Under the pieces are notes generated by a model. That model was not told the origin of the DNA. It searched no databases and was given only the letters and a program-made list of their open reading frames with translations. Positions 302 through 58,599 of a DNA stretch of 59,433 bases are shown one piece after another. The position numbers and the translations under genes are program-made. Source of the DNA: a virus. Each line of letters begins with the position of its first letter. Position 1 is the stretch's first letter. The stretch covers positions 1-59,433 of IMG/VR virus record IMGVR_UViG_3300033553_000061. The stretch is one strand, 5' to 3'.

Positions 302-395
302 GGCAACCTGTGGTTTGCCATATCCCTATGGCCTATATGCGAGATGACCCCCTAGCCCCCCTTATATCGCCGCTATGGGCAACCGTGGGTTTACC
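302..395. promoter_or_regulatory. Pair of operator-like inverted repeats
   Basis: Two related 18-base imperfect palindromes lie 76 bases apart: GGCAACCTGTGGTTTGCC at 302-319 and GGCAACCGTGGGTTTACC at 378-395. Each has GGCAACC and GGTTTRCC half-sites. They sit upstream of the promoter at 449-477 and look like binding sites for a dimeric regulator. No regulator is assigned. Apart from these, 245-448 holds nothing recognisable. Confidence 0.4.
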
Positions 396-448
396 ATGCC
401 CCCGCCCCCTGATGATTGTGACCATTGCGGGGCATGGTCTACTATCGG

Positions 449-477
449 TTGTCTATGTCATCGGGGGACGCTATATT
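449..477 (+). promoter_or_regulatory. Promoter of the left module
   Basis: TTGTCT (449-454) and TATATT (472-477) are separated by exactly 17 bases, a good sigma-70-type match in a gene-free stretch. It lies 48 bases before the first left-module start. A G5/C5 hairpin (486-490 with 500-504) and a strong ribosome site (AAGGATCAGACC, 513-524) follow. The 17-base spacer and TTGT start match the rightward promoter at 55433-55461. Confidence 0.6.
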
Positions 478-18844: not shown

Positions 18845-19176
18845 ACCGAGAACAAAGACGCACGCTTGAAGCAATCCACCGGGGCCAGAGCAAACGCCAG
18901 CCCACCTTGCCGCCAGCCAGACAGGACGGGAGGCCGCTCTATTTCGACATCGAGAAGGGCCAATACGTCCAGTGCTACACCTGTGAGAAGGAAGGCAACC
19001 TCGCCCGGTACGGATTCGAGAAGGCGTTTCTGGCTGACCCGGCGAACTCACCGGACGGCTCCGGGGACCTCATGACGGTCTGCCACATGCACCTCCCGTT
19101 CAACGCGGTGATCTGGAACCAGCACAACGATTTCTGCCGCAATAAATCCGACACGGAAAGGTGGCGGGAGGCTTGA
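18841..19176 (+). CDS. Unknown Cys/His protein, likely zinc-binding
   Basis: 111 residues, ATGA overlap with the DHFR-like gene. Basic N-terminus (MNREQRRTLEAIHRGQSKRQ) and one metal-site candidate made of CYTCEKEGN (near 45-48) with CHMHLPF (near 81-84). No family recognised. Its last codons overlap promoter P3. Confidence 0.55.
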   Translation: MNREQRRTLEAIHRGQSKRQPTLPPARQDGRPLYFDIEKGQYVQCYTCEKEGNLARYGFEKAFLADPANSPDGSGDLMTVCHMHLPFNAVIWNQHNDFCRNKSDTERWREA

Positions 19177-19201
19177 CGAGCAACCATTTGTTGACTATCT
19201 A
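19170..19201 (+). promoter_or_regulatory. Operator-promoter P3
   Basis: -35 TTGACG (19173-19178) and -10 TATCTA (19196-19201) are 17 bases apart. The imperfect palindrome GGCTTGACGAGCAACC (19170-19185) covers the -35, and a second CAACC..GTTGAC pair fills the spacer. It is weaker in symmetry than P1 and P2 but has the same geometry. It drives DUF3310 and the following genes after a 100-base leader. Confidence 0.6.
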
Positions 19202-19304: not shown

Positions 19305-19754
19305 ATGACCCAAGAACCCCTCTCAGCCCTCGACCAGCAGGTCGGCGGCCAGCACTACAAGAAGGGCATCCAGCCTTTCGCGCTCTCGATGGCCAATGGT
19401 CACGACGGCTGCATCCACGCCATCACCAAGTACATGACCCGGCACCGTCGCAAGGACCCCGCCAAGGGGTACGAGGACTGCCAGAAGGCCCACCATATCA
19501 CTGGCATCCGGCTCGAACTGATCAAGGTGTACGGGCTGCCGCGCGCCCCGTCCGCGCCTCAGATCATGATCCGTGATTACGTGAAGTCGAACGAACTCTG
19601 CCTCACCGACGCTGCTGCAATCTATGCCATCGAAGCATGGAACGAGAGGTCGAACGTGGACCACGAAAAGTGGCACGATGGCGTTCGGCAATACATCCGG
19701 GCAGCCGCCCGGTACGCCTACCCTGAAACCTTCAACGAAGAGGACTTCGTATGA
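19305..19754 (+). CDS. DUF3310 protein (T7 gp1.7-like)
   Basis: 149 residues. The N-terminal QVGGQHYKKGIQPFALSMA and HAITKYMTRHRRKDPAKGYE are the DUF3310 signature, followed by DCQKAHHITGIRLEL. T7 gp1.7, a nucleotide kinase acting on dTMP/dGMP, carries this domain. Here the domain is followed by an extra ~70 residues. AAAGGACCAGATC precedes the ATG. A role in nucleotide supply fits the context; kinase activity is inference. Confidence 0.8.
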   Translation: MTQEPLSALDQQVGGQHYKKGIQPFALSMANGHDGCIHAITKYMTRHRRKDPAKGYEDCQKAHHITGIRLELIKVYGLPRAPSAPQIMIRDYVKSNELCLTDAAAIYAIEAWNERSNVDHEKWHDGVRQYIRAAARYAYPETFNEEDFV

Positions 19755-29372: not shown

Positions 29373-29565
29373 TATTGATACGCTCTCTTGCCACCGCAAC
29401 GGAGCGTTGCACGTTGGCGTCTTCAATTTTTTCCATGTCTTCGAGAGGCAGGCCCTCCCGGATCAGCCGCTTCCGGTCTAGTCCCAGCAACTCGGCGTGT
29501 CTGAGAGAACCCAGCACGCAGAACCCTGCTTGGCGGATGTCGGCCACGGTCAGCTTATCCGTCAT
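29362..29565 (-). CDS. Small tail-region protein, unknown
   Basis: 67 residues with VADIRQAGFCVLGSLRHAEL followed by a helical, charged tail. Overlaps the gpJ-like gene by eleven bases and the upstream gene by four. Small proteins of this kind precede tip proteins in related siphoviruses; possibly a tail-tip assembly factor. No family recognised. Confidence 0.6.
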   Translation of the reverse strand: MTDKLTVADIRQAGFCVLGSLRHAELLGLDRKRLIREGLPLEDMEKIEDANVQRSVAVARERINNEQ

Positions 29566-52498: not shown

Positions 52499-53176
52499 TT
52501 AAATCAGATCGTCATCGTCTCCCGAGTCGTTCTCGTCATCGAGATCGCCCTCGTAAGACACGTCGTCATCATCCAACAGATCATCAGGATCGCCGCCACG
52601 GTTGGCAAAGGGTTCGCCATCCATCAGGAACTGGACAGTCGAGAACGAAGCGTTGATGCGGTTCGGCATCTTGCGCTTGGGGTCCTTTTTCTGCCCGTAC
52701 AGTTCAACGATACCGTTGACATAGCACCCGGCGTAGGGTGCGCCCTTCCGGCCTTCTTCTGCTTCGATCCACTTGTTATCACTACCCTTGCGGTTCGTGA
52801 TGACACGAGGCGGATACTTGGCAGGAGACGAGCAGGACAGGATGTAGTGCCCGGCATACTCGTCGCGCGGTGTCTGAAAATGGTCGTCATTGTCGCCGTT
52901 TTTGAAGCAGGTCATTGACGCCGGAATTTTCGGCCAGTTCTTTTCGTCGCCCCATGCCTTTTCCTTGGCGGCATGAGAACCCGCCTTAATGCCCGCCAGA
53001 ATGGCCTTGAGGTGGGGGTTGTCCTTTTTGGGGATCATGAACACGCAGTTGAAAGTCTTACGGGTTGTACCGTCGTCATTCTCTTGTTCCTGCGGGTCGA
53101 AGATGTGGGGGAACGACAGGCGTGCTCCCTTCACTACCACGGTGCGCGGGTCTCTCTCTTTTTTCTTGTCAGCCAT
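52499..53176 (-). CDS. DUF2815 ssDNA-binding protein
   Basis: 225 residues. VVVKGARLSFPHIFDPQEQE, PYAGCYVNGIVELYGQKKD and NRINASFSTVQFLMDGEPF are the DUF2815 signature, an OB-fold-like family thought to bind single-stranded DNA in phage replication modules. The C-terminal ~30 are acidic and end GDDDDLI, reminiscent of acidic SSB tips that bind partner proteins. Lies between the nuclease DUF2800 and polymerase genes. Confidence 0.85.
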   Translation of the reverse strand: MADKKKERDPRTVVVKGARLSFPHIFDPQEQENDDGTTRKTFNCVFMIPKKDNPHLKAILAGIKAGSHAAKEKAWGDEKNWPKIPASMTCFKNGDNDDHFQTPRDEYAGHYILSCSSPAKYPPRVITNRKGSDNKWIEAEEGRKGAPYAGCYVNGIVELYGQKKDPKRKMPNRINASFSTVQFLMDGEPFANRGGDPDDLLDDDDVSYEGDLDDENDSGDDDDLI

Positions 53177-53194: not shown

Positions 53195-54511
53195 TTAAAT
53201 GAGATCGTCGATCTCGGGGTTATCCTCGAACATTTCATCCAGCAGATCATCGTCATTCGGAATCTCTGCCCGAGGGTCGTTTTCGGGAACCAAGATCGGC
53301 TTTGCGTCACCAACGACAACGAGCCGTTCGTAGCGGGTCCGGTACTTGGCCTTCCCGACTTCTTCCTCAACATAGGTTGGGGAGCGAAGTTTCTTTGCCC
53401 ACGCTTCGTCTCCGAAGTCGTGTTCCAGCATTATCTCGGCCTTCTTTTCATCGGCCCACTTGCGGGCTCCTGACCGACCGGGGACGCGCTTCAACCCGGG
53501 GGTCGGGCGTCCTCGTGTAGCGTCCTCCATCGCTTCCTCATGCAAGGCTTTCAAGAGCCCTGTGATCAGCTTCTCATGGAGCAAAATCTGCGATCTTTGC
53601 GCCGGGGTCAAGGCCCTACGGTCGATAAGATCAGGCTCGGCTCCTACCGCCAGATCGTCTTCCAACTCGTCCAGATCAAGGTCGATCAGATCGGCAGCAT
53701 ACTTGATCCGCGTCTTGCACGTATTGTGGAACGCGGCCTTGCAGAACTTGCATTGCTTCTCGCCCGGCACGCGGGGCTGGCCGGGGATCATGGTCTTATC
53801 GGCCAACTTGCGGATGCGCTTCAATTCCTTGAGCACATGCCCCAGCGTTGTGCGCCAGACGCCACCACCACCCGGAGCCCGGGGCTGTTCGATGATGATG
53901 ATGACCTCGATAGCGTCCCGGGCCTTCTCCCACGTCGGATATTCGTCCTGCATATCGGCACTGGTCTGCCAGTGCTCGAAGAACCGATCCTCTGCGAACG
54001 TGTCCCAGACGCCGCCCGTATAGAGCGTAGCCTGCTCGTTGTGCTCGGGGGCGACGGGCACGCCAGCGCCCCACTTCCAATCGAACGTGGTCAGCCGCCA
54101 CATGATAGGATTGATCACGAAAGAATCGGCGGTGCCACTCTCGTCATCCCCTATCCAGTTCGCCAGATTGACCCGGCGTTCGACATACAGTTCGGCCCCG
54201 GGTGTGTCGGCCAGAGCCCAGATGGTATCGAGACCCGAGACCATCTTGTTCGCCATCTCGCTGGTAAACTCACGGTACTGCCCGTCCTCGCAGAGCATCC
54301 GGTCGCCTACCAGATACCAAGGGTCGAGGCCGAGTTCGAGACAGTCAGCCGCATAGTCGTGAAACACGGTGCCCTGAATAGCCTCTTCGCCTGCCGTGTC
54401 GGGCAGACCCTCTTCCTCTTCCACAGAGCCGAGGCACCGCACCCAACGGTGGGCCGTGGACGGCGACCGTTTGGAGTGGAACCCCGGGATTTTGATCGGC
54501 TCTGGGAGCAT
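53195..54511 (-). CDS. DUF2800 PD-(D/E)XK nuclease
   Basis: 438 residues. STAHRWVRCLGSVEEEE and EAIQGTVFHDYAADCLELG are the DUF2800 start; GTADSFVINPIM and the strand LTTFDWKWGAG fit the D...E-x-K nuclease core (substituted KWG). CKFCKAAFHNTC (near 255) is a Cys cluster like the iron-sulphur site of Cas4/AddB-type nucleases. Acidic end PEIDDLI. Probably a replication or recombination nuclease. Confidence 0.8.
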   Translation of the reverse strand: MLPEPIKIPGFHSKRSPSTAHRWVRCLGSVEEEEGLPDTAGEEAIQGTVFHDYAADCLELGLDPWYLVGDRMLCEDGQYREFTSEMANKMVSGLDTIWALADTPGAELYVERRVNLANWIGDDESGTADSFVINPIMWRLTTFDWKWGAGVPVAPEHNEQATLYTGGVWDTFAEDRFFEHWQTSADMQDEYPTWEKARDAIEVIIIIEQPRAPGGGGVWRTTLGHVLKELKRIRKLADKTMIPGQPRVPGEKQCKFCKAAFHNTCKTRIKYAADLIDLDLDELEDDLAVGAEPDLIDRRALTPAQRSQILLHEKLITGLLKALHEEAMEDATRGRPTPGLKRVPGRSGARKWADEKKAEIMLEHDFGDEAWAKKLRSPTYVEEEVGKAKYRTRYERLVVVGDAKPILVPENDPRAEIPNDDDLLDEMFEDNPEIDDLI

Positions 54512-55371: not shown

Positions 55372-55410
55372 GATGGTCCTTTCCAGAGTGTTGTCTTTAC
55401 CGAAGCCCAG

Positions 55411-55439
55411 ACATAGTATCGCGCCCATGGGGTTGTCAA
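55411..55439 (-). promoter_or_regulatory. Leftward promoter PL
   Basis: On the leftward strand a perfect -35 TTGACA (55439-55434) is followed after 17 bases by CTATGT (55416-55411); TACTAT with a 15-base spacer is an alternative. The -35 lies inside the palindrome 55429-55443 shared with the rightward promoter. It would drive the 33-kb leftward arm. Confidence 0.6.
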
Positions 55440-55461
55440 CCCCTCGTTGACCATCTATATG
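55429..55461 (+). promoter_or_regulatory. Rightward operator-promoter P4
   Basis: The 15-base palindrome GGGGTTGTCAACCCC (55429-55443) overlaps -35 TTGTCA (55433-55438); -10 TATATG (55456-55461) lies 17 bases downstream. The palindrome resembles those at P1 and P2 (GGTTGA...TCAACC). It drives the helix-turn-helix gene at 55488. Confidence 0.7.
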
Positions 55462-55487
55462 GGTTCCGACCCTGATTGGAGAATGAG

Positions 55488-55739
55488 ATGCCCACCTATA
55501 AGAACCCGGAAGACGCGGAGAGCGATCTTCACAAGCTTCTGTTGCGGGCGGTTCCGAAGAACAAACTCGGAAACAAGACGCTGACGGAACTGGCCAGACT
55601 AACCCATTTGTCTAAGTGGGGGATTCGTAAATGGATCAACAACGACAAGATTACCCCTGAGAGAGCGCAGCAGATTGTCAAGCTGTCGGAAGGGCGTGTC
55701 AAGATCGAAGATTTCCACCAATACGTTTACAAAGACTAG
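55488..55739 (+). CDS. Small helix-turn-helix regulator
   Basis: 83 residues from ATG 55488 (GGAGAATGAG upstream). KTLTELARLTHLSKWGIRKW, followed by KITPERAQQIVKLS, is a Cro/CI-type helix-turn-helix. It sits immediately downstream of the bidirectional operator, like Cro in lambda, and is the only clear transcription regulator in the window. It probably binds GGTTGA/TCAACC palindromes at P1-P4 and PL; this is inference. Confidence 0.75.
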   Translation: MPTYKNPEDAESDLHKLLLRAVPKNKLGNKTLTELARLTHLSKWGIRKWINNDKITPERAQQIVKLSEGRVKIEDFHQYVYKD

Positions 55740-55809: not shown

Positions 55810-58599
55810 ATGACCACGACTTTTGCCCTTTATAACAATATGATACTGTATTCTCTCGGCTCGGGAGATAACCTCGGGAGGGCGAAAAACACCAAGGAAA
55901 CGATCAAGAAACTGATCGTCCGATTCCGCGAACCACACGTCACCCCGGAGAAGTACCGGGAGTACAAAGCGGCCTCAGATAAGCGGCAGCGGACCCTCAA
56001 GGGGTCAAACGGCTGGATGATGCGCGGGGCCGTCAAGAAGGGCGAGAACCGCAACCGTAACTCGATCCAGCCCAGCCTTCTCATGACGCTGGACATCGAC
56101 TACGCCACCCCTGAATACATTGAACTTTTGCTGGCTGGAAAAATCCTGCCGGGCGTCTTTCTGATCGCCCACAGCACCCGCTCTCACACGCCTGAGAACC
56201 CCCGTATCCGAATCATCATCTTCCTCAAGGAAGCCGTCAGCCGGGAGCGGTATCAGGCCGCCAGCCGGATCGTGGCCCAGCTTGCTGATCCGAACATGGA
56301 ATGGACTGACAAGGTTTCGTTCCGCCCGGCGCAGATGATGTATATGCCGACTGTCTCCAAGGACATGGCCAAGCATTACATCTTCCACGAGCAGCAGGGC
56401 GACCTGCTGGATCACGAGGACGTGATCGAGACATGGGAGATGACCAATGGCTCAGCCGAGGACATCGGGAACCTGCCGCGCACCCAGAACGAAGATGAAC
56501 TGCGTGAGAGCGAAGAGTTCGCCGAGGACCCCCTTACGAAGAAGGGGCAGGTCGGGGACTTCTGCCGCACTTACACCATCACGGAACTGGTGACGGGCAA
56601 GGACGGAGAGCCCGGCATCCTCGCAGACATATACGAGCCGGTTGAGTGGGCCAACGGTGCCATCTCCCGGATGACCTATCTCGGCGGCACAACATCGAAC
56701 GGTGCTGTGGTCTATGAGGACAAGCATGTCTACTCCCACCACGGCTCCGACCCGACCTCAGACATGCTGACCAACGCCTTCGATCTGGTCCGCATCCACA
56801 AGTTTGGCAAAGACGACAAAGAGTCCGAGAAGGACACGCCGCTCAAGGACCTGCCATCCAGCAAAAAGATGACCGATTATCTGCGGGACGACAAATTCTA
56901 CAAAGAGGCGATGGCCGAGAGCCGCTACGACATCGAAGATATGCTGACCGATGACGACGTTGACTACGTGGGCGAAGCCGCCAACGAGATCGACGAAGCG
57001 GAGCAGGCCGAACTCGACGAACTTATGGGCGTTCCGATTGAGTCGATCTCGACCACGCCTCGGTTGCGCAAGAGCCACCGCCGTAACCTTGCCGAGAAAC
57101 CGCCGACCAAGTGGATTGCCAAGGAACTGAGCCTGACCGACGACGGCATTATCAGGACCACGACCCACAACATCGGCACAATCGTCATGAACGATCCGAG
57201 GTTGTGGAGGAAGATCGCGTACAACGAGTTCTCCTACCAGATCGTGCTGACCGACGACATTAAAACCAAGACAAAGCTGATCCCGACCTATTACTGCAAG
57301 AACAAGCACAACGGCGACCGTTGGCAGGATTACTTCGACACGATCTGCCGCGCGATCATCGAGAGTCCGTCCGACAAGGGTGGCTATGACATCTCTGTGC
57401 CGATGGAGAAGGTCAGGCAGGGCATCGAACTGGCCGCACGGGTCAACACCTTCCACCCGGTTCGTGAGCGCATCCTCGACCACGCTGAGCACGGCCCCGA
57501 GGGTGTTGACCTCGACACGGTGCTGATCAAATACTTCGGAGCCGAGGATAACGCTTACACGCGGCAGGTCTCACGCATCATGCTGATCGCCAGCGTTGCC
57601 CGGGTGTTCGAGCCCGGCTGCAAGTTCGACTTCGCCCTGATCCTCGAAGGTATTCAGGGCATCGGTAAATCGACCGCGATCAAGCGCCTCTACGGCGAAG
57701 AGTATTTTGGCGAGATGGACTGCGATCTGGGGAACAAGAAAGAGGTCGCCGAGCAGATGTTCGGGAAGTGGGCTCTGGAACTGCCAGAACTATCCTCCAT
57801 GCACAAGGGTGAGGCCAACCACACCAAGGCGTTCATGTCCCGGCAGCACGATGACGTGCGGCTCAGCTACGAGAAGCACACAGCCGAACTGCCGCGCCAG
57901 TGCGTCCTCTGGGGCACGACCAACGATACCGAGTATCTGCGGGACGTGACGGGGGGTCGGCGCTACCTCCCGATGCCCATCGCAAACCTGCCCATCGACT
58001 CCATCGCCATCATGCGGGCCAAGGCTGGCATCTGGCGCGCGGCCTACGAGGCTTACGTCCAGATGCGGGCAGATACGCCCAGCGACCGCGACCTGCCCCT
58101 CTACCTGACCGGGGAGGCCGACAAGATCGCCAAGAAGCTGCAAGAGCGTGCCCGTAAGACAGAGGCGTGGGAGACGTGGCTCGACGAGGTTGAGGATTGG
58201 ATGGATGATGACATGCCCCTGCAATCCTTCATTGCTCAGGCGGATGTTAATGACGCCTCTCTGGATGACTCCATGTTCCGGGGCCACCACCTTGACTCCA
58301 TCGTCTGCCGGGTCGCGTTTACGCGCAAGGAAGCGATCAGAGAGGGTCTGGGGCTCCATGGCAACGTGCCCAATGGCGCACAGCCTGATGCCTTCTGGAA
58401 GAGCGTTCTGAAAGCACTCTCTGCAAAGGGCTGGCACCATGAACGGGTGAAGATCGGCGGGAAGCAAAAATCCTACATCATCCGGCCAGACATAACCCCA
58501 GATGAACGCTACCAAGGATTTCGTATTATCAAACCGGCGCAGGCCCCTGAATCCGGGCTCTACCGAGTTGATGATGAAGACGACAACGACCTCATGTAA
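55810..58599 (+). CDS. VirE/VapE-type primase-helicase
   Basis: 929 residues. N-terminal archaeo-eukaryotic primase-like region (LLMTLDIDYATPEYIELLL near 90; HSTRSHTPENPRIRIIIFLK near 120). C-terminal VirE ATPase with Walker A GIQGIGKST (about 614-622), LPELSSMHKGE, DDVRLSYEKHTAELPRQ and TNDTEYLRDVTGGRRYLP. Ends DEDDNDLM, the shared acidic tail. Probably primes and unwinds DNA for the family A polymerase encoded on the other arm. Confidence 0.9.
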   Translation: MTTTFALYNNMILYSLGSGDNLGRAKNTKETIKKLIVRFREPHVTPEKYREYKAASDKRQRTLKGSNGWMMRGAVKKGENRNRNSIQPSLLMTLDIDYATPEYIELLLAGKILPGVFLIAHSTRSHTPENPRIRIIIFLKEAVSRERYQAASRIVAQLADPNMEWTDKVSFRPAQMMYMPTVSKDMAKHYIFHEQQGDLLDHEDVIETWEMTNGSAEDIGNLPRTQNEDELRESEEFAEDPLTKKGQVGDFCRTYTITELVTGKDGEPGILADIYEPVEWANGAISRMTYLGGTTSNGAVVYEDKHVYSHHGSDPTSDMLTNAFDLVRIHKFGKDDKESEKDTPLKDLPSSKKMTDYLRDDKFYKEAMAESRYDIEDMLTDDDVDYVGEAANEIDEAEQAELDELMGVPIESISTTPRLRKSHRRNLAEKPPTKWIAKELSLTDDGIIRTTTHNIGTIVMNDPRLWRKIAYNEFSYQIVLTDDIKTKTKLIPTYYCKNKHNGDRWQDYFDTICRAIIESPSDKGGYDISVPMEKVRQGIELAARVNTFHPVRERILDHAEHGPEGVDLDTVLIKYFGAEDNAYTRQVSRIMLIASVARVFEPGCKFDFALILEGIQGIGKSTAIKRLYGEEYFGEMDCDLGNKKEVAEQMFGKWALELPELSSMHKGEANHTKAFMSRQHDDVRLSYEKHTAELPRQCVLWGTTNDTEYLRDVTGGRRYLPMPIANLPIDSIAIMRAKAGIWRAAYEAYVQMRADTPSDRDLPLYLTGEADKIAKKLQERARKTEAWETWLDEVEDWMDDDMPLQSFIAQADVNDASLDDSMFRGHHLDSIVCRVAFTRKEAIREGLGLHGNVPNGAQPDAFWKSVLKALSAKGWHHERVKIGGKQKSYIIRPDITPDERYQGFRIIKPAQAPESGLYRVDDEDDNDLM

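Follow-up and report, generated by a model that had tools for sequence, protein, structure and literature searches.

A probable Cro-type divergent promoter switch in an integrase-less Chi-like phage, with an operator shared with integrase-bearing relatives

Results

Gene layout and relatives of the window

The window analysed here is the whole of the 59,433-bp virus record IMGVR_UViG_3300033553_000061. Two operons diverge at the locus under study. Rightward, a gene for an 83-residue helix-turn-helix (HTH) protein (55488..55739, plus strand, ATG at 55488) is followed by a primase-helicase gene (55810..58599, plus strand) whose product is 59% identical to the DNA primase/helicase of Synechococcus virus S-ESS1. 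Leftward, on the minus strand, the first gene is P0002 (54970..55371), an Ala/Lys-rich protein with an acidic tail that was called from its translation and from alignment of its start and upstream sequence with S-ESS1. It is followed by a DUF2800/Cas4-like exonuclease (53195..54511), a Gp2.5-like ssDNA-binding protein (SSB; 52499..53176, PHROG 112) and the DNA polymerase region, an order also seen in AchV4 and YSD1. No RNA families were found in the window.

By DNA comparison, the closest named relative is S-ESS1 (Sessunavirus, Casjensviridae), with 73% identity over 73% of a 4-kb query around the switch. The window carries the core genes of the Casjensviridae in their order (primase, HTH, divergent DUF2800/SSB/DNA polymerase operon, terminase), this gene order recurs in YSD1, JS26 and AchV4, and the window falls among Casjensviridae members in terminase and DUF2800 trees. 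Judged by its sequence, the window is an integrase-less, Chi-like (Casjensviridae) siphovirus.

Several features of these records were seen in passing. In S-ESS1 (L001, NC_052968.1, 487-3310) the primase-helicase is annotated as two overlapping genes, where the window has one 929-residue frame; a frameshift or sequencing error is possible. S-ESS1 is named as a Synechococcus virus; its switch promoters match the alphaproteobacterial consensus and its relatives infect proteobacteria, and its host assignment may be worth rechecking. Positions 1-300 of the window are noncoding and C-rich and contain repeated units, among them CATCTGGCCACCCATG near 22 and near 153, and S-ESS1 has a similar repeat-rich noncoding stretch downstream of its primase gene. 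A 58-kb sequence filed under a Deltaproteobacteria MAG (L141, JAJDAO010000097.1) has the HTH gene and the switch, and is probably a phage genome binned with that MAG.

The first rightward gene encodes a Cro-like protein

The first-pass annotation of this DNA had called the product of the first rightward gene a Cro-like HTH protein, and HTH_3, profile and fold comparisons all agreed. The protein matched HTH_3 with 24.9 bits, above the cut-off of 23, and no other HTH_3 protein turned up in the window. It also matched YdaS with 26.1 bits, below the curated cut-off of 30, and the next gene is the primase. When a profile of 13 homologues was compared with the PDB, only Cro proteins matched (3bd1, E 0.005; Cro hybrid 5w8y, E 0.005). 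The AlphaFold model (mean pLDDT 81) had as its top fold match the prophage Cro protein Xfaso 1 (probability 0.96, E 0.42). The product is a small, single-domain HTH protein that resembles Cro in sequence and fold, and we propose it as the repressor of the switch. Small XRE-type proteins can alternatively occur in toxin-antitoxin-like modules, which we counted against the Cro reading. AchV4 encodes a homologous HTH protein, gp71, 47% identical and at the same divergent position. In KPN_BP (L006 1257-1806) and in the equivalent region of the genome G012, another small HTH-like gene separates the Cro-like gene from the primase.

Two divergent promoters with conserved geometry

Two promoters, with TTGTCA rightward and TTGACA leftward and each with a 17-base spacer to a -10 box, had been proposed between the operons, and we recovered both at 55411-55461. 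The rightward promoter (55433..55461, plus strand) has its -35 box at 55433-55438, a spacer of 17 bp and the -10 box TATATG at 55456-55461 (or CTATAT at 55455-55460). The leftward promoter (55411..55439, minus strand) has its -35 box at 55439-55434 and, 17 bp on, the -10 box CTATGT at 55416-55411. A strict sigma-70 scan listed neither promoter, and both -10 hexamers match the E. coli TATAAT poorly. The pair does fit the alphaproteobacterial promoter consensus, CTTGAC-N17-CTATAT (PMC2573895). At least 10 of its 12 positions were matched at four places in the whole window, two of which are the switch pair, a count that is not significant since single-base shuffles of the window yield 2-11 such places.

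Among the 11 related loci that have TTGTCAA at the switch, 10 have TAT at exactly 17 bp on the rightward side. The leftward -10 box lies at exactly 17 bp in five loci (CTATGT in the window, S-ESS1 and L010; TTATAT in L009; CTATAT in L017) and is poor outside these five close members. As this geometry is conserved across related loci, and not because of match counts, we judged the promoters to be real; the comparison supports a pair of divergent promoters with overlapping -35 boxes.

The putative operator lies beside the palindrome

As first noticed, a perfect palindrome, GGGGTTGTCAACCCC (55429-55443, 7-bp arms around a central T), covers both -35 boxes. A palindrome of this arm length is not significant alone, as the window has nine with a loop of 0-1 and shuffles have 5-14. 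Its GGG(G)...CCC(C) flanks are confined to the window and three close relatives, S-ESS1, L009 and L010. We rejected GGGG...CCCC as a family-wide operator on the basis of this restriction, and the flanks may be of local importance. The exact 15-mer is useless as a family marker, with more than 100 matches in viral contigs.

Operators were sought in 15 regions upstream of HTH homologues, whose proteins reach down to approximately 20% identity with that of the window. All 4+4 inverted repeats with gaps of 0-12 were counted without a preset word, and 200 dinucleotide-shuffled sets served as the control. CAAC-N5-GTTG ranked first and was present in 12 of the 15 regions, against a shuffled maximum of 3 of 15 for any repeat. 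The 12 include close relatives, yet they span proteins approximately 30-78% identical to that of the window, and their spacers have otherwise diverged. At the switch of the window, the putative operator reads GTCAAC-CCCTC-GTTGAC (55435..55451; core 55437-55449). It is centred 7 bp to the right of the palindrome; its left half overlaps both -35 boxes, and its right half lies within the rightward spacer and is not required by any promoter element.

The operator could instead be GGGGTTGTCAACCCC itself, with one dimer centred on 55436 over both -35 boxes. This 15-mer is a perfect palindrome; S-ESS1 and L010 have it whole, and L009 has 13 bp of it. However, its half-sites stand in the reverse order (GTTG-N1-CAAC), 1 bp apart, unlike every dispersed copy of CAAC-N5-GTTG, and its TTGTCAA core is accounted for because two overlapping -35 boxes and one half-site must spell it. 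Five loci without the GGG..CCC flanks have the HTH gene, and of these L012, L013, L017 and L141 keep CAAC-N5-GTTG, which is degenerate in L139. We therefore give the palindrome only a slim chance of being the operator. The original proposal that one dimer on the palindrome would block both arms needs a change of site, as the repeat that the family conserves is CAAC-N5-GTTG, 7 bp to the right; its other part stands, as the shifted site still overlaps both -35 boxes.

CAAC-N5-GTTG was absent from the switches of YSD1, JS26, Axp2 and AhaSv, for which reason we rejected it as the operator of all Casjensviridae, and it was absent or unclear at the switches of Rhodobacter, Ruegeria and Chi-like relatives. 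We also set aside a reading of the repeat at the switch as an RNA hairpin, because it lies upstream of both predicted starts, near 55468 rightward and near 55404 leftward, and is transcribed from neither promoter; an RNA hairpin role may apply to the AchV4 sites beside start codons. The annotated start of AchV4 gp72 (L005 3845-3872) falls on the switch operator, and this gene therefore probably begins further downstream.

Further copies in the window

A second exact copy of CAAC-N5-GTTG (19181-19193) lies in the spacer of a predicted promoter, CTTGAC-N17-CTATCT (19172..19200, plus strand), upstream of gene 19305-19754. S-ESS1 and the genome G003 have the same layout, TTGACTAC-CAAC-N5-GTTG-ACTATCT, upstream of the orthologue of this gene. 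The third exact copy, at 29397 in the tail-gene region, may be due to chance. With three copies against approximately one expected there is no enrichment, and we rejected a genome-wide dispersal of the operator in the window.

A candidate early control region (302..476, plus strand), weak when taken alone, precedes the first rightward gene. It contains the near-matches GGCAAC-N5-GTTTGC at 302, GGCAAC-N5-GTTTAC at 378 and GTCTAC-N5-GTTGTC at 437, together with a predicted promoter, GTTGTC-N17-CTATAT, at 448-476. The equivalent noncoding stretch of S-ESS1 has two exact CAAC-N5-GTTG sites. As control sites, the near-matches in the window are suggestive only.

Most integrase-bearing relatives carry arrays of the same word

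The statement that the window has no lysogeny genes was upheld for integrase and CI-like repressor. We found no homologue of the CI-like gp78 of AchV4, no PF00589 tyrosine integrase and no second HTH_3 protein, and 30 further window proteins had no integration-family match in PHROGs; the search was directed at these four targets. The window therefore does not have the CI-type repressor and integrase of a lambda-type genome. AchV4 has an integrase, excisionase-like genes and the 231-residue gp78, and its authors obtained no stable lysogens; operators are not mentioned in the published description (PMC7996906).

A gp78 homologue and a tyrosine integrase occurred together in ten of the phages checked (AchV4, KPN_BP, G010, G012, SS2019XI, RHph_X2_30, PS6, AH2, RcRios and RpoS-V18). 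Both were missing from the remaining virus records checked, including the window, some of these records being fragments. In the first seven of the ten, CAAC-N5-GTTG or the overlapping TCAA-N7-TTGA ranked in the top four of all inverted repeats enriched in the genome; SS2019XI, RHph_X2_30 and PS6 had been chosen by their repressor only, ahead of site counting. AchV4 has 14 sites against 1.2 expected and SS2019XI has 12 against 1.4, and nine of the 14 AchV4 sites are intergenic in a genome that is only 5% intergenic. Many genomic copies, as in stoperator systems, are thus present in these seven phages and not in the window.

AH2, RcRios and RpoS-V18 have integrase and CI-like genes and no CAAC-N5-GTTG array, which also counts against generalising the operator to the whole family. 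Across 21 genomes, operator enrichment was associated with lifestyle at a modest Mann-Whitney p of 0.045, uncorrected for relatedness; the value is modest because these three phages have no array, and S-ESS1 and G008 show a mild excess. Other repeats were enriched genome-wide in AH2 (W03, NC_018283.1; AACA-N6-TGTT, 8 against 0.5 expected) and RcRios (W05, MW677523.1; CCTG-N9-CAGG, 13 against 1.6), and are possibly the sites of their own repressors. In G006 (IMGVR_UViG_3300025805_000002), AAAC-N1-GTTT occurs 20 times against 0.15 expected, which looks like a repeat array of another kind.

This distribution bears on whether the repeat is bound by a host factor, or is part of an extended signature of host RNA polymerase promoters, with the HTH protein acting elsewhere. 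In favour of this, the -35 boxes largely dictate TTGTCAA and the word is located in promoter spacers. However, the GTTG in the spacer belongs to neither promoter element, and the dispersal of the word tracks the phage repressor gene. The word is also found in phages of Klebsiella, Achromobacter, Pseudomonas, Sinorhizobium and Marinobacter, which argues against one host factor. We consider this explanation very improbable.

The phage might also be temperate by an unrecognised route, such as another type of integrase or extrachromosomal maintenance, which would make the locus a true lysis-lysogeny switch. Lysogeny by other means is known in phages, and relatives of the same gene order have integrase and a CI-like repressor. 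Against this stand the negative searches of the window for a tyrosine-integrase domain, a gp78 homologue, a second HTH_3 protein and PHROG integration families, and we regard it as the least probable of all the readings considered. We favour the original suggestion of a timing switch in a lytic phage over a lysis-lysogeny switch.

The integrase-less clade

In terminase and DUF2800 trees, the window groups with G003, G006, G008 and G011 in an integrase-less clade that lies among integrase-bearing lineages, and at least two to three state changes are needed. These trees have a midpoint root only, and the S-ESS1 rows were too short to place. Because of this rooting, loss of lysogeny in the clade of the window is plausible, and not more. 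Those members of the clade that were checked keep the switch operator, which is degenerate in G011/L139. Since the operator persists there without a CI-like gene, its conservation must depend on some protein besides the CI-like one. We tentatively entertain the possibility, which we hold at somewhat less than an even chance, that an obligately lytic clade has kept the Cro half and its operator as a stand-alone replication timer, having lost its CI-like repressor, its integrase and most dispersed operators. If so, the repressors of temperate relatives could still recognise and shut down the switch of the lytic phages.

Discussion

Our analysis suggests that the locus is probably a Cro-type, autorepressed divergent promoter switch that times two replication operons and shares its operator with a lysogeny circuit. 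Following entry, host RNA polymerase would fire both promoters. The rightward transcript would yield the Cro-like protein first and then the primase, and the leftward transcript the exonuclease, SSB and polymerase. The Cro-like protein would most likely bind as a dimer to CAAC-N5-GTTG (55437-55449), which lies within the rightward spacer and overlaps both -35 boxes. With rising amounts of the protein, the dimer would block the rightward promoter, and with it its own primase operon, and would compete with recognition of the leftward -35 box, so that the exonuclease/SSB/polymerase operon would be reduced or timed. The binding of CAAC-N5-GTTG by the Cro-like protein, the repression of both arms and the timing role are what we infer from this arrangement.

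Strand-specific RNA-seq of the Casjensvirid JS26 found the first leftward genes, gp82-80, strongly expressed in the middle and late periods, and placed the replication cluster gp77-84 in the middle class (PMC8754663). If this pattern held in the window, repression would be stronger on the rightward arm. The JS26 data are indirect for the window because the JS26 switch does not contain CAAC-N5-GTTG.

The operator word is spread through the genomes of most integrase-bearing relatives, alongside a CI-like repressor, and for this reason the circuit looks like the Cro half of a lysogeny switch. Although circuits of this type are well known, a Cro-only form and the CAAC-N5-GTTG operator family appear to be unreported, and a limited literature search found no earlier report of either the switch or its operator. 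The new elements are where the operator lies, that integrase-bearing relatives share it and that it is retained in the absence of CI and integrase. These results offer a concrete, testable operator code for a replication switch in a common phage family. We found no described switch for this family, and one operator word connects its lytic and integrase-bearing members. They open the questions of what becomes of a lysogeny circuit once lysogeny is lost, and of whether a Cro protein is of use without CI. The integrase, CI-like gene and operator arrays of AchV4 and KPN_BP raise the further question of which members described as lytic have hidden lysogeny control, which bears on the choice of phages for therapy.

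The locus resembles the CI/Cro region of lambda in having a Cro-like HTH gene first in a rightward early/replication operon, divergent promoters and an operator over promoter elements, the promoters and shared operator being recognised here from anatomy and conservation. Unlike lambda, the window has no CI gene opposite Cro, its leftward arm consists of replication genes (exonuclease, SSB, polymerase), and its switch has a single operator instead of three. Where relatives have the CI-like protein, it is encoded elsewhere, after the helicase gene. PY54 offers a Cro-type protein with a single palindromic operator, the 16-bp OR3, but PY54 is temperate and its Cro represses cI and not its own synthesis (PMC4488713), whereas the site in the window lies in the promoter of the Cro-like gene. 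The AchV4 lysogeny module has the HTH gene gp71 at the same divergent position, with the CI-like gp78 and integrase, and differs in its int, xis and cI-like genes (PMC7996906), which the window does not have. The stoperators of Cluster A mycobacteriophages are also dispersed repressor sites, numbering 20-30 in temperate genomes, and members whose repressor is damaged or deleted (D29, MissWhite and Jeffabunny) are obligately lytic (PMC6550527). Those sites, however, are asymmetric and 13-14 bp long, a monomer binds them, and there is neither a Cro analogue nor a divergent switch (PMC6550527), whereas the sites in the family of the window are dyad-symmetric and the Cro-like gene persists.
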